Source: a virus
Length of the DNA stretch: 64,000 nt
Strand: one strand, 5' to 3'
Virus record (IMG/VR): IMGVR_UViG_3300020469_000023
Location: 35,096 to 99,095 of that record
Each line of letters begins with the position of its first letter. Within the stretch, counting starts at the first letter, position 1. The translations under genes were made by a program, and so were the position numbers. Positions 4,216-52,174 of the stretch are shown here, piece by piece. The notes below the pieces were generated by a model that saw only the letters and a program-made list of their open reading frames with translations, was not told where the DNA came from and did not search any database.

Positions 4216-5004
4216 TTAAGAAAAACCTTTATTTTTGTGTAGTTTTTTATTGTCTTGCATGTATTTTTCACATAATAACATACCTAAATCAACTATTGAG
4301 TAGTCAAAACCTAAATAATCAAAAATTTTTATTAATTGTTCTTCTCTTTCATCTTCATCTTCTGTATGTAATAACTTCATTGGGTCTATATGTAACCAAT
4401 CGTGGGGTTCTGGTATCCAGTCTTTATATCGTTGTGTAGTAAATAAATTAAATTCTAATGGAGTTTCCCAGATATCACCAATATTGTTTAAACCGAACTC
4501 TTGTAATAAAGGAGTAAGTTTATTTATTGCAATTCCTTCTGGTTGATTGAATGCCGCAGTTTCTGACATAGTGTGAGTACCTTTACCAAACACTTTTATT
4601 TGTGCTAAGTCTCGACAAAACTTTGAACCTTTAAGTTCTGTTGTATTTAAAATAATAGTCTTCGATACATTCCAATCTGAGTATAAACCTTTTATCCATT
4701 GGTCTTCTTGTACTACATATCCATAACAGTGGTCAATTCGTAATGTCCACTTATCGTTTGAAGTTGTCCAAAGTTCTTCAAAAAACTCTTTTGGACTGTA
4801 ATCAACAAGGCATTTGTGTGTGCCTAAACCTAAATAAAGATGAGAATGATGGTCGAATCTGTCTCTTTTAAATTCGTATTTAGTAATATTATCTATTTTG
4901 TCAGTTTCATGTTGATTGAATTCATGATGGCGTTGTAGATATGATGCTAAGAATTCACCACCATTTCCACCTAAATAATGTATATTTAATAATTTATGTC
5001 TCAC
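4216..5004 (-). CDS. Hypothetical protein, sulfotransferase-like P-loop possible
   Basis: 262 residues beginning with GTG at 5004. A Gly-Gly-Asn-Gly-Gly-Glu-Phe loop near residues 13-19 after a beta-strand resembles the nucleotide-binding start of sulfotransferase-like proteins seen in marine phages. The rest contains several Trp/His-rich segments without a catalytic signature I can name. A near-consensus late box AATAAATA (5011-5018) sits 6 nt before the GTG. The assignment is tentative; it could be an unrelated virus-specific enzyme. Confidence 0.6.
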   Translation of the reverse strand: MRHKLLNIHYLGGNGGEFLASYLQRHHEFNQHETDKIDNITKYEFKRDRFDHHSHLYLGLGTHKCLVDYSPKEFFEELWTTSNDKWTLRIDHCYGYVVQEDQWIKGLYSDWNVSKTIILNTTELKGSKFCRDLAQIKVFGKGTHTMSETAAFNQPEGIAINKLTPLLQEFGLNNIGDIWETPLEFNLFTTQRYKDWIPEPHDWLHIDPMKLLHTEDEDEREEQLIKIFDYLGFDYSIVDLGMLLCEKYMQDNKKLHKNKGFS

Positions 5005-16543: not shown

Positions 16544-16999
16544 TCATATTAATTGAAATTTTTCTACCTCTGGTTGGAAGTTAAAATCCCAATCTTCAAA
16601 ATTTTCACACAATGGGTGAGAAAACCAACCATCACGACTATAATTTGTACTATACCCGTCTAACCAAACTTTTACTTGTTTTTCAATAAAGTCTTCGTAA
16701 GGAACAAAGACAAACAAAACATCGTCTCTAGAACCTTCTTTAGTATAAAATTTACGAGTATAAAATTTTATTGTTATACCTTTCTTAAAGTCATTTTTTC
16801 TAAAGTCAACATAACCCGTGACCCAAGGTAAAGACTCACCTAATTCTTCTGCTAATTTTTCATCGGTGATTTGAACTTCTTTTACATTCTGTTCATAATC
16901 ACTATGGAAAGTATATTTACCATCTTTATAATTATAATCTGTAGAATTAGACCTATAAATGTCTTCTTTTACTCTTTCAATAAATTGATTACTTTGCAT
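16544..16999 (-). CDS. Hypothetical protein
   Basis: 151 residues, mixed alpha/beta, rich in Tyr, Phe, Asp and Lys, with no signal peptide or recognisable motif. It is a separate transcription unit: its own promoter at 17030-17058 and a GAGGTAAA ribosome binding site directly before the ATG. Ends just before the next promoter. Probably an early gene of unknown function. Confidence 0.65.
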   Translation of the reverse strand: MQSNQFIERVKEDIYRSNSTDYNYKDGKYTFHSDYEQNVKEVQITDEKLAEELGESLPWVTGYVDFRKNDFKKGITIKFYTRKFYTKEGSRDDVLFVFVPYEDFIEKQVKVWLDGYSTNYSRDGWFSHPLCENFEDWDFNFQPEVEKFQLI

Positions 17000-17029
17000 T
17001 TTACCTCTTTTCTTATTCTTAATACAAGT

Positions 17030-17058
17030 ATTTTACAGGGTCAAACAGGAATTGTCAA
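17030..17058 (-). promoter_or_regulatory. Early-type promoter TTGACA-17-TAAAAT
   Basis: Minus strand: -35 TTGACA (17053-17058), 17 nt, -10 TAAAAT (17030-17035). The transcribed leader (AATACTTGTATT...AGAGGTAAA) is closely matched by the one at 48.7 kb. Confidence 0.75.
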
Positions 17059-49408: not shown

Positions 49409-49506
49409 TCTTTAATTATCTAGCACATAGTCACTATTCGACTAAAGTGAAATCAGAATAGAGTTGGTTACTGAACACCCATGTGAATATGAGAAAGGTC
49501 ACATTA

Positions 49507-49566
49507 CCTCTATAAGGGAAGAGACGAACATTAACTCTTCCCTTAAATGTAGAGGTTGTATTTTTT
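49507..49566 (+). terminator. Hairpin terminator after bS21
   Basis: CCTCTA + TAAGGGAAGAG pair with CTCTTCCCTTA + TAGAGG, then TTGTATTTTTT. A strong stem with a poly-U end. It ends the bS21 transcript; its last base lies at the start of the next late box. The about 100 bases before it hold no gene I can see. Confidence 0.75.
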
Positions 49567-49573
49567 ATAAATA
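49566..49573 (+). promoter_or_regulatory. T4-like late promoter TATAAATA for the riboswitch transcript
   Basis: Perfect late box directly after the terminator; transcription would begin near 49579, just before the riboswitch. Confidence 0.65.
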
Positions 49574-49591
49574 CTAGTGTATAGAAATATA

Positions 49592-49748
49592 CATACGTTC
49601 ATCTTAGTATTATTGACTACTAAGACGGAAGTAGGAAGATAGGAAAACCTCTTTCTTTTTCATAAAGAAAGGTAAGCAAGTAAGCACTTATGGGTCAATA
49701 AATTCCAGTGCTGAACGAGACCGACAATCGACCGAAGGAACGCTATGA
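49592..49748 (+). promoter_or_regulatory. Glutamine (glnA-type) riboswitch
   Basis: Conserved parts of the glutamine-I aptamer are all present in order: CGTTCATC (49596-49603), a CTTAGTA/TACTAAG hairpin, GACGGAAGTAGG, and, after a variable part, CCGAAGGAACGC. The ends pair (GTTC/GAAC). These are the glnA RNA motif hallmarks. It should sense glutamine and control the small peptide gene that follows, probably through translation since GGAGGG precedes the ATG. Confidence 0.85.
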
Positions 49749-49807
49749 GAAGGGTGTACAACGAAAGTTGTATGTACGAAATCGATTAGAAAACTGGAGG
49801 GATACAC

Positions 49808-49972
49808 ATGTCTTATTACAGAGGTATCAAAGTAACTCCTGAAAATATTGCTAAAGAGAAAAATTCTCCAAAAGCAGGTATTTACAGAGGAACTAAGCAC
49901 GATGCGGAAGTATCTAAAGACAACACGTCTACTAGCGAATTAAATTATCGCGGTGTAAAACATGTTGCTTAA
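49808..49972 (+). CDS. Small YRG-repeat protein (DUF4278-like) under riboswitch control
   Basis: 54 residues, MSYYRGIKVTPENI..., with three Tyr-Arg-Gly motifs (YRGIK 4-8, YRGTK 26-30, YRGVK 47-51). Such YRG segments are typical of the DUF4278 family of cyanobacteria and marine phages (from memory). Function unknown. GGAGGG lies 8 nt before ATG. Expression is presumably tied to glutamine status. Confidence 0.75.
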   Translation: MSYYRGIKVTPENIAKEKNSPKAGIYRGTKHDAEVSKDNTSTSELNYRGVKHVA

Positions 49973-49995
49973 TAGATAACTTGCTATCAGAACAA

Positions 49996-50023
49996 GGGCA
50001 GACTTAACATCTGCCCTTTTTTT
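49996..50023. terminator. Hairpin terminator GGGCAGA/TCTGCCC
   Basis: A perfect 7-bp stem, 7-nt loop, then TTTTTTT on the plus strand. It ends the riboswitch transcript; on the minus strand it also lies after the small gene ending at 50022, with a weaker U-run. Confidence 0.85.
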
Positions 50024-50201
50024 ATGTTATGTATGAAAGTATAACTATACTGCATAGAGTAATTGCAGGTATCATGTAGAGAGAAGTATTAACATTTGAT
50101 ACTTCAAATTTCTTTTCTGCTACATCTAAACCACCTGCTTTTATTACTTTGTGTAATCTGCCAGACTTCATAAGTTTGTGTAGTTTTTTCATATGTTTCA
50201 T
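50022..50201 (-). CDS. Small protein with C-terminal membrane helix
   Basis: 59 residues: Lys/His-rich N-terminal half and a hydrophobic C-terminus (about 42-58). Its ATG follows a late TATAAATA box by 34 nt. Converges with the riboswitch gene at a shared terminator. Possibly a small membrane-active late protein; no family known. No good ribosome binding site is visible. Confidence 0.6.
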   Translation of the reverse strand: MKHMKKLHKLMKSGRLHKVIKAGGLDVAEKKFEVSNVNTSLYMIPAITLCSIVILSYIT

Positions 50202-50267: not shown

Positions 50268-50296
50268 TTGACAAATGTTGTAAACTTTGTTATTAT
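50268..50296 (+). promoter_or_regulatory. Early-type promoter TTGACA-17-TATTAT of the 510-nt RNA
   Basis: Plus strand; -35 50268-50273, -10 50291-50296. No gene follows; the transcript is the structured RNA. Confidence 0.85.
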
Positions 50297-50302
50297 AACA
50301 AC

Positions 50303-50810
50303 ACTCGATAACGTTAACTTTGTAATGTGAGTTAATAGTTCAGGGTCAATTGAGGTGAGAGTCCTCTTGAAGAAGAGACCTATCATACATGGTCCACTTG
50401 TAACCTGAACCTAGTTGGTGAGAGTTTTGCGACTCGATAAACAACGTAAGTTGATGTTTTGTGCCAAGGTGGCCAATTCATTAATGACGAAGCAGTTAAA
50501 TGTGGGAAAATAGATGCGAGTAGAGATACATGGTTTGTGAACCCCATGGAAACAATAGATTGATTATCTAGAGAATACGAAATGGTTGGCAAGTAAAACA
50601 ATGATTATGAGTTAATCACATAAGTCATAGTTTGAAGGCCGTAACATATGTAAACAATTTTTGAAAGAGAATTGGGGAATTTACCCGAAAGACGAAGTAT
50701 CTGCACCTTGATGAGCATGGAATTGCAAGGCGCCAAATCTCGATGGTAGTGAGTGGTAATGAGAAATGAATCAATACGAGGCGAAGAAGGAGTGGTGACA
50801 CTCCTTTTTT
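50303..50810 (+). ncRNA. Large structured noncoding RNA candidate, about 510 nt
   Basis: It runs from a consensus promoter to a strong terminator with no credible ORF. Many local helices can be drawn: GTTCAGG/CCTGAAC (50337-50343 with 50404-50410) enclosing two hairpins, GCC/GGC, CATGG/CCATG, TAGAT/ATCTA, TGATTA/TAATCA, GGG/CCC, CCTTG/CAAGG, and long-range TCTCG/CGAG. Purine-rich joining segments (GAGAG, GTGAGAG, GAAAGACGAAG) recall ornate bacterial RNAs. It does not show RNase P, tmRNA or group I core signatures. I cannot name its class; comparison to GOLLD, ROOL and similar giant RNAs is worthwhile. Confidence 0.7.
50787..50810 (+). terminator. Hairpin terminator of the 510-nt RNA
   Basis: AAGGAGTG / CACTCCTT with a GTGA loop, then TTTTTT. 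Confidence 0.9.
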
Positions 50811-50816
50811 GTATAT

Positions 50817-50843
50817 AAAAAAAGGGAGTCTCGAAAGACTCCC
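50817..50843 (-). terminator. Hairpin terminator after gp23
   Basis: Minus strand GGGAGTCT / AGACTCCC with a TTCG loop, then seven U. It closes the head-gene operon. Confidence 0.9.
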
Positions 50844-50869
50844 CCTTTTTGGTCTGTAACCTATACAGA

Positions 50870-52174
50870 TTAAGTTAAGATATTAGTAACCTTAAATATT
50901 CTGTAGTAGAAGTTAGTTTTAACAGATGCAAGACCGTTAGCAGGTGTAGAACCTACAAATGGGTTTGACGCCATTCCGTATCTTGTTTTAAAACCTATTC
51001 TAGGTTGGAAAGTATCTTCCCCAACTGCTTTAACCATTTGTAAAGGTACATATGGGCAGTAGAAAACACCAGCGTCATAAGGGTTAGTACCTTTATAACC
51101 TACAGTACAGTAGTCTGTGTTTGCATATGGGTCGATATACACTTTGATTCTTCCGTTAAGAAGACCAGCAAATGTATTTCCAGTATCGTCAACATTTAAG
51201 TTGTTCGCTATACCTGGAGAGTAATCTAAAGTTCCAGCGGCCGCTAAAGCAGTTGCAACATCAGAAGAACAGATTAGGATATTTCCTTTTCCTCTTCTTG
51301 AGTCTTTCGCTATCTGATTACATTCTCTATCTATTTGAACACCTAAACCTTTGAACTTCTCAGCACTCCATCTTCCATCAGCATCAGAAGACATATTGAA
51401 CACACCATTAACAGTAACGTTTGCTTGTTGGGCACCGTCTTTTGCTTGTGAGTTAATAGTTCTGATAACTTCTCTATTGATTTCCGCTAAGATTTCAGTA
51501 GATAAGATGTTAGCAAGTTCAGTTTCAGCATCTAAACCGTGGATTGCTTTAAGGTCTTGAGCAAGTTCTAAAGTGTACTCTGCTTTTAAGGCACGTGAAA
51601 CAGCAGTTACAGTTGATTTCTCAATTGTAAAACCCATTTCATTGAAAGTACTACCAGTAGTTGCACCAAGTTCCTCAGCATCTACAGTAGGCATACCAGA
51701 AGCGGTAAGAGCAGTTAATCTTAAACCTGCTGAGTCAATACCATTGTAACCTGAAACGTTGTCAGAATCATGAGTTCCAGATGAGTCACCTGAAAATCTA
51801 GTTTCTGCTTCGCTGAACAATGCTTCTCTATTAGAAGTTGAACCACCTTGGTATCTTGCCTTCATAGCAAAGATTAAACCAGTTGGTCCATTCATTGGTT
51901 GAACACCACATACATCGTATGCGATTAAGTTAGGCATAGCACGTCTAACTAATGAGATTAAGACTGGGTCAAAATTGGACACACTTGAAGTATTGTTAGC
52001 AGGTGCGGCCTCAAATAACATAGTCTCGTTTTGTTCTGCAATTGCTTTCTCTTGGTTTTCCAAAAGGGCCGCAGTTACGGAACGCCTGTGATTGTCTTTA
52101 ATGGCGCCAGCAGATTCTTCATCTAAGACTGGTTTCCATTTTTCAATCAGGTTGTCATAACTTTGAATTTCCAT
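50870..52174 (-). CDS. 23: Major capsid protein, T4 gp23
   Basis: 434 residues (T4 521; marine T4-like gp23 are commonly shorter). The HK97-like body begins around residue 60 (ISLVRRAMPNLIAYDVCGVQPM, GPTGLIFAMK). An N-terminal propeptide is expected; Leu53-Phe54-Glu55 | Ala56 fits the gp21 cleavage rule (L/I-x-E). The final gene of the head operon, with a terminator after it. Confidence 0.96.
   Translation of the reverse strand: MEIQSYDNLIEKWKPVLDEESAGAIKDNHRRSVTAALLENQEKAIAEQNETMLFEAAPANNTSSVSNFDPVLISLVRRAMPNLIAYDVCGVQPMNGPTGLIFAMKARYQGGSTSNREALFSEAETRFSGDSSGTHDSDNVSGYNGIDSAGLRLTALTASGMPTVDAEELGATTGSTFNEMGFTIEKSTVTAVSRALKAEYTLELAQDLKAIHGLDAETELANILSTEILAEINREVIRTINSQAKDGAQQANVTVNGVFNMSSDADGRWSAEKFKGLGVQIDRECNQIAKDSRRGKGNILICSSDVATALAAAGTLDYSPGIANNLNVDDTGNTFAGLLNGRIKVYIDPYANTDYCTVGYKGTNPYDAGVFYCPYVPLQMVKAVGEDTFQPRIGFKTRYGMASNPFVGSTPANGLASVKTNFYYRIFKVTNILT

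Follow-up and report, generated by a model that had tools for sequence, protein, structure and literature searches.

Genomic Setting

RNA510, the feature studied here, was found in a 99,095-base IMG/VR virus record that derives from a marine T4-like phage. The analysis covered a 64-kb stretch of this record, referred to below as the window, whose numbering is used throughout; contigs of relatives that were retrieved for comparison carry labels of the form L###. In the window, gp23, the scaffold gene and the portal gene are located on the minus strand, and the plus strand carries genes for a uvsW-like helicase and gp55. The isolates nearest to the phage by gp23 are Phage C48C1 (69%), Methylophilales phage Melnitz (62%) and Pelagibacter phage HTVC008M (61%).

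RNA510 is predicted to be a noncoding transcript of about 509 nt (50303–50811, plus strand), the 5′ end of which was placed from the promoter. As stated in an earlier note made from the letters alone, it is positioned between a glutamine-riboswitch unit (49594–49800, plus strand; Rfam match at 49594–49746), which has its own terminator at 49994–50018, and the major capsid gene gp23 (50870–52174, minus strand). The same note called the RNA upstream of the capsid gene, which is wrong in the transcriptional sense because gp23 is encoded on the minus strand; the two units converge 3′ to 3′ and share a bidirectional hairpin. This second hairpin (50817–50849), which has A/T tracts on both sides and separates the 3′ ends of RNA510 and gp23, is likely to act as a bidirectional terminator for both. 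A divergent 59-aa ORF (50022–50201, minus strand) with a T4-type late promoter (TATAAATA, about 50243–50236, minus strand) is located upstream of RNA510, and a phage-encoded S21 homologue lies about 0.9 kb upstream in the same cassette.

Two other parts of this cassette deserve mention in their own right. A short peptide under riboswitch control that contains several YRG[IVT]K repeats (49808–49972, plus strand), assigned to PHROG 5049 (unknown function), has diverged from its counterpart in L004 much more than its surroundings. The gap of about 185 nt between the S21 gene and the riboswitch (49409–49593) is 91% identical to L004. It has a hairpin (GGGAAGAG...CTCTTCCC) in addition to short arms, and may be a further RNA element.

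Promoter, Terminator and Coding Potential

The sequence TTGACA-17-TATTAT, followed by AACAACA (50268–50296, plus strand), precedes RNA510 and matches the sigma-70-type consensus at 11 of 12 bases. Three versions (window, L004 and L086) include the promoter; its two hexamers are the same in all of them, whereas the 17-nt spacer has changed. The promoter is a member of the TTGACA-17-TATAAT family of this phage, several members of which are preceded by ‘AATGG’. Promoter-like sites in general are as common as in shuffled sequence (16 against an expectation of 15.3). Few of those in the region combine 11 matching bases out of 12 with a 17-nt spacing. In work on the related phage Melnitz, promoters of the sigma-70 type were assigned to the early class and TATAAAT to the late class (PMC9004378). 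At the other end, an intrinsic terminator consisting of a hairpin and a T run was identified at about 50785–50811 (plus strand), and its hairpin, GAAGGAGTG-GTGA-CACTCCTTTTTT, is identical in every copy that reaches that far. The consensus promoter and the terminator reported in the earlier note are therefore both present.

No plus-strand ORF of at least 40 aa is found in the interval, and each of the three plus-strand frames contains 13–15 stops. ORFs of 58–72 aa are present on the minus strand and carry no third-position signal. The 40 substitutions that distinguish the window from L004 are distributed evenly across the three codon positions, and the versions differ by indels of 1–2 nt. One frame of the L004 version gave a weak match to the Pfam family DUF7678 (E 0.0063, below the cut-off), which did not recur in any further frame or version that was tried, and the read-through frames gave no credible Pfam match. 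An origin as a protein gene or pseudogene was rejected on account of the stops throughout, the lack of codon periodicity and the lack of credible protein homology. With the invariant hexamers and terminator at its ends, these results give good support to the description of the interval as a promoter-to-terminator noncoding RNA gene devoid of a credible ORF.

Distribution and Searches against RNA Families

A search with gp23 yielded 80 loci. RNA510 is present in L004, L006 and L008, where the copies are identical, and partial in L005, which differs from L004 at two positions; a scan with a 23-nt block of RNA510 added L082 and L086. The L086 contig ends within RNA510, and L181 ends at the promoter. 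The distinct versions are thus three that are full or near-full (window, the L004 group and L086) and the partial one in L005. The three are 92–97% alike, the homologues are 90–94% identical, and their carriers are close relatives only.

Six exact-block scans of viral contigs (16–23 nt) recovered only close copies and otherwise short chance matches; L125, L109 and L151, which were considered as homologues, were rejected as weak gapped extensions of one 16-mer. No further homologue was identified when 84,980 genomes of bacteria and archaea were scanned with an 18-nt block. A blastn search of 50,697 phage records identified nothing credible, the only match being one of 37 nt in a Lactococcus phage that is attributed to chance. 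Full-sensitivity profile searches detected no more distant homologue, two sub-domain covariance models run over 73 loci (that of the 5′ sub-domain also over 18 whole records) detected no diverged one, and an S21-anchored search returned the same set only. RNA510 was absent from every more distant relative examined, and on these searches it is restricted to one narrow phage lineage.

Comparison with Rfam, which the earlier note had proposed as a check, gave no match to any family at the gathering score and none that was credible at E<=10. The covariance models of GOLLD, ROOL, OLE, HEARO, group I and group II introns, RNase P, tmRNA and 6S RNA were not matched by RNA510, so that the suggested membership in GOLLD or ROOL finds no backing. 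An identity as tmRNA was considered since Melnitz-like phages have one, and was ruled out by Rfam together with ARAGORN, which predicted no tRNA and no tmRNA in the 64-kb window. The alternative suggestion of a new class holds in that RNA510 falls outside every Rfam family, yet only three near-alike versions represent it; judged by sequence, a new class of RNA is possible.

Conservation and Predicted Fold

Between the window and L004, RNA510 is 90.7% identical, and the adjacent region of the 59-aa ORF is far below this value (58%). The third codon positions of gp23, scaffold and portal are 88–91% identical, about equal to RNA510, and purifying selection on RNA510 is therefore not strong overall. 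Constraint is patchy: identity is 100% at 50703–50752 and 78% at 50603–50652, and the most conserved block, about 80 nt beginning GGGGAATTTACCCGAAAGACGAAGTATCTGCACCTTGATGAGCATGG... (50672–50752, plus strand), shows no change in any copy that extends this far.

The folding-energy z-score of RNA510 is −2.75 with the terminator and −1.12 without it, and that of the L004 version is −0.87; stability by itself is unremarkable, and ‘strong fold’ would be an overstatement. The minimum-energy folds of the window and L004 versions have 97 base pairs in common, against 37±15 when the substitutions of L004 were put at random places in the window sequence (0 of 300 mutants as high), and the complementary strand shows no excess (47 shared pairs against 39±15). 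When the terminator was omitted, the three version pairs, which are not independent of one another, gave 0/200, 5/200 and 0/200 on the plus strand and 64/200, 186/200 and 18/200 on the minus strand; 2 of 12 coding controls were also extreme in this test. One control region, the sense strand of the gp23 mRNA at 51401–51882 (minus strand), shares 130 pairs with L004 against a null of 47. In the window's own fold, 10 pairs are broken where 15.5 are expected (83 of 5000). In the two-sequence consensus, which is derived from the same sequences and makes the comparison partly circular, differences fall in 16 of 296 paired and 30 of 215 unpaired columns. The unpaired positions of this consensus fold are 71% A+G (49% A), in keeping with the purine-rich joints that had been noticed by eye.

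Several elements can be distinguished on the plus strand of the predicted fold. CUCG at 50304–50307 may form the 5′ half of an invariant closing helix, with CGAG at about 50777–50780 as its partner; a 5′ domain with inner hairpins (50338–50410), closed by GUUCAGG/CCUGAAC, is almost unchanged among versions; and a long hairpin is likely at about 50445–50487. The hairpin at 50655–50674 contains the sole two-sided compensatory change (CAAU..AUUG in the window, CAAC..GUUG in L004). This change concerns a single pair, and shuffles give as many; the versions differ too little from one another for true covariation to be more than minimal. The covariation analysis that the earlier note had called for thus produced this one change only, and it was in the strand-specific preservation of the fold that a positive signal appeared. 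Taken together, the evidence that the plus-strand fold has been preserved in evolution is good but not conclusive, and it is conservation, not folding energy, that sets RNA510 beyond chance.

The same data bear on the possibility that RNA510 is a decaying remnant, of an old protein gene or of a dead RNA, which has retained its promoter and terminator. The narrow distribution, the ordinary folding energy and the divergence close to that of neutral sites are all compatible with decay, as is the sub-threshold DUF7678 match. However, this match is lost in the other frames and versions, codon periodicity is lacking and stops occur in all frames; moreover, variation in other parts has left the promoter hexamers, the terminator and the block of about 80 nt untouched, and the plus-strand fold is preserved. 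A remnant is consequently regarded as unlikely, and RNA510 is, very probably, a real structured RNA gene as judged from its sequence.

The Site 3′ of gp23

In L002, L003 and L007, the gp23 proteins of which are 97–98% identical to that of the window, RNA510 is missing and an RNA of about 135 nt, termed RNA-A, is found instead. RNA-A is flanked there by the same upstream sequence, which extends as far as the −35 box, and by the same gp23 terminator, and hence occupies the same promoter-terminator slot adjoining gp23 as RNA510; no sequence similarity between the two was detected. More distant relatives have opposite-strand genes there: in 30 of the 57 loci for which enough sequence is available, the large ORF that comes first 3′ of gp23 is on that strand. 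Those identified are D12-class adenine methyltransferases (L030, L049 and L069); in addition, L037 gave a methylase match and L033 a weak ParB-like one. Because RNA-A and opposite-strand genes replace RNA510 in relatives, the site 3′ of gp23 looks, at the sequence level, like a hotspot for accessory cargo.

RNA-A also occurs in the window itself, at a different site upstream of a NifU-like gene (48712–48600, minus strand); the copy in L007 is at 4690–4551 (minus strand). It extends from promoter to terminator (CCCCCGGTGAGGTAGA...CCGGGG), is conserved in sister phages, occurs at two different genomic sites and has no Rfam match. A 44-nt stretch of the window (16989–17031, minus strand) that shares 86% identity with the 5′ part of RNA-A stands behind a TTGACA-17-TAAAAT promoter (17058, minus strand) and may be a shared leader or a second copy.

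A tRNA-Asp(GUC) gene with a further noncoding stretch, of about 290 nt, directly behind it is found in L007 (6689–7058), L004 (9551–9905), L016 (7557–7925) and L011 (4148–4515); in L004 the tRNA-Asp gene is about 1.7 kb from the RNA510 copy. The stretch is 93–98% identical across contigs with S21 proteins that are only about 71% identical, and its predicted fold has an end-to-end helix of about 20 bp with two-sided changes at two pairs. It has no Rfam match except the tRNA and is absent from the window, and is possibly a better candidate for a new RNA than RNA510.

Proposed Role and Alternative Explanations

The promoter, the terminator, the absence of a coding signal, the preservation of the plus-strand fold, the exchange of cargo and the absence from Rfam are properties of the sequences compared; for transcription, early timing, stability, action in trans and a target of RNA510, we infer the following course. 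The RNA polymerase of the host, carrying the housekeeping sigma factor, would start early at RNA510's own promoter and stop at its own terminator, and the folded RNA of about 509 nt would accumulate as a separate species. RNA510 would be optional cargo in a slot that holds interchangeable early accessory genes among relatives, the alternatives being a different small RNA, Dam-type DNA methyltransferases and possibly a ParB-like protein. It would most likely act in trans, as a decoy or inhibitor that binds a host component of RNA processing, translation or defence. That RNA510 is early accessory cargo is probable, its function as cargo being deduced from the slot and the promoter type, and a trans-acting role in host takeover or counter-defence is put forward tentatively. 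The explanation as a whole, a free-standing RNA gene that is early, lineage-specific and trans-acting, is given a probability of about 0.5. A role in virion assembly or as a scaffold, which the earlier note had offered, finds no support, given the early-type promoter, the convergence with gp23 and the absence of RNA510 from phages with nearly the same gp23.

The main specific rival is pairing with the gp23 mRNA, according to which RNA510 is a base-pairing regulator that uses its nt 24–39 to delay or lower capsid synthesis until late infection. These 16 nt (50326–50341, plus strand) are perfectly complementary to the interior of the gp23 mRNA (matching plus strand 51447–51462) and form the longest complementarity of RNA510 in the whole 99-kb record; a second match of 12 nt involves nt 96–107, and the 16-nt stretch is present in both RNA510 and gp23 in L004, L006 and L008. 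Pairing energies were calculated as ungapped stacking scores for eight genes, and the gp23 value of −26.4 was reached by 11 of 1000 shuffles, with no other tested gene standing out. Corrected for the eight genes, however, the chance is about 0.09, and across the genome a complementarity of 16 nt is attained by 7 of 100 shuffles. The pairing site is deep within the reading frame and occurs also in phages without RNA510, the complementary stretch of RNA510 is itself paired in a hairpin of the predicted fold, and a 16-nt antisense would not require 509 nt. Regulation of gp23 by pairing is, on balance, quite doubtful.

By analogy, RNA510 could instead work like GOLLD, ROOL or OLE, by self-assembling or by sequestering a ribosomal component, perhaps the phage S21. 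Its scale is similar (ROOL and GOLLD are several hundred nt), it has A-rich joints and many short helices, and the S21 homologue is close by, a pocket for RpsU (S21) having been proposed for OLE (PMC12286853). Such a mode of action appears improbable, since Rfam matches to these families are lacking even at the permissive threshold, the window has no tRNA and the link to S21 is one of genome proximity only. Weakest is the view that the interval is an untranslated spacer with an incidental promoter-terminator pair and no stable RNA accumulating, which the chance frequency of promoter-like sites would allow but which is made very improbable by the rarity and conservation of a promoter of this quality and by the occurrence of another promoter-terminator RNA in exactly this slot in the sister clade.

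It is conceivable, albeit rather unlikely, that RNA510 founds a new class of phage RNAs, large, structured and expressed early, which would do a job that in relatives falls to proteins encoded in the slot. If so, this job might be counter-defence or a takeover of the machinery that the host uses for translation or RNA decay. Large structured RNAs are scarce in phages and their roles still open, and a discrete, lineage-specific RNA in a methyltransferase hotspot would suggest that RNA cargo takes part in the arms race between marine phages and their hosts. RNA510 is well bounded by promoter and terminator, so that it can be synthesised, probed and deleted. RNA-A and the tRNA-Asp-linked RNA suggest that this lineage is unusually rich in undescribed RNAs.

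Comparison with Known RNAs

By its sequence, RNA510 is a new and so far orphan family among the free-standing noncoding RNAs of phages. ROOL RNAs are roughly 500–600 nt long, a length comparable to that of RNA510. Like RNA510, ROOL is phage-borne and free-standing (PMC12286853); RNA510 differs in that it does not match the ROOL covariance model, has no tRNA island nearby and is lineage-restricted. GOLLD is likewise large, encoded by phages or prophages and of unknown function, and has also been found in marine metagenomes; it is often >800 nt, is located near tRNAs and forms a nanocage (PMC12286853), whereas RNA510 is about 509 nt, lacks a match to its covariance model and has no tRNA in the window. 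OLE, from bacteria, is a large structured RNA as well. Its proposed link to RpsU recalls the phage S21 gene in the cassette of RNA510, although RNA510 has no Rfam match to OLE and the companion-protein context of OLE was not seen among the neighbours examined.

Two comparisons come from marine T4-like phages. The CfrI antisense RNA of cyanophage S-PM2 resembles RNA510 in its location beside protein genes and in its unknown function, and is about 225 nt in length with antisense overlap with its targets (PMC2984593), whereas RNA510 is free of overlap with any gene and ends at a terminator of its own ahead of gp23. In the Melnitz-like phages a permuted two-piece tmRNA occurs with a glutamine riboswitch (PMC9004378); the window has no tmRNA and blastn of RNA510 finds nothing in Melnitz, and the likeness is that of related marine T4-like phages in which regulatory RNAs are located beside a glutamine riboswitch (PMC9004378).
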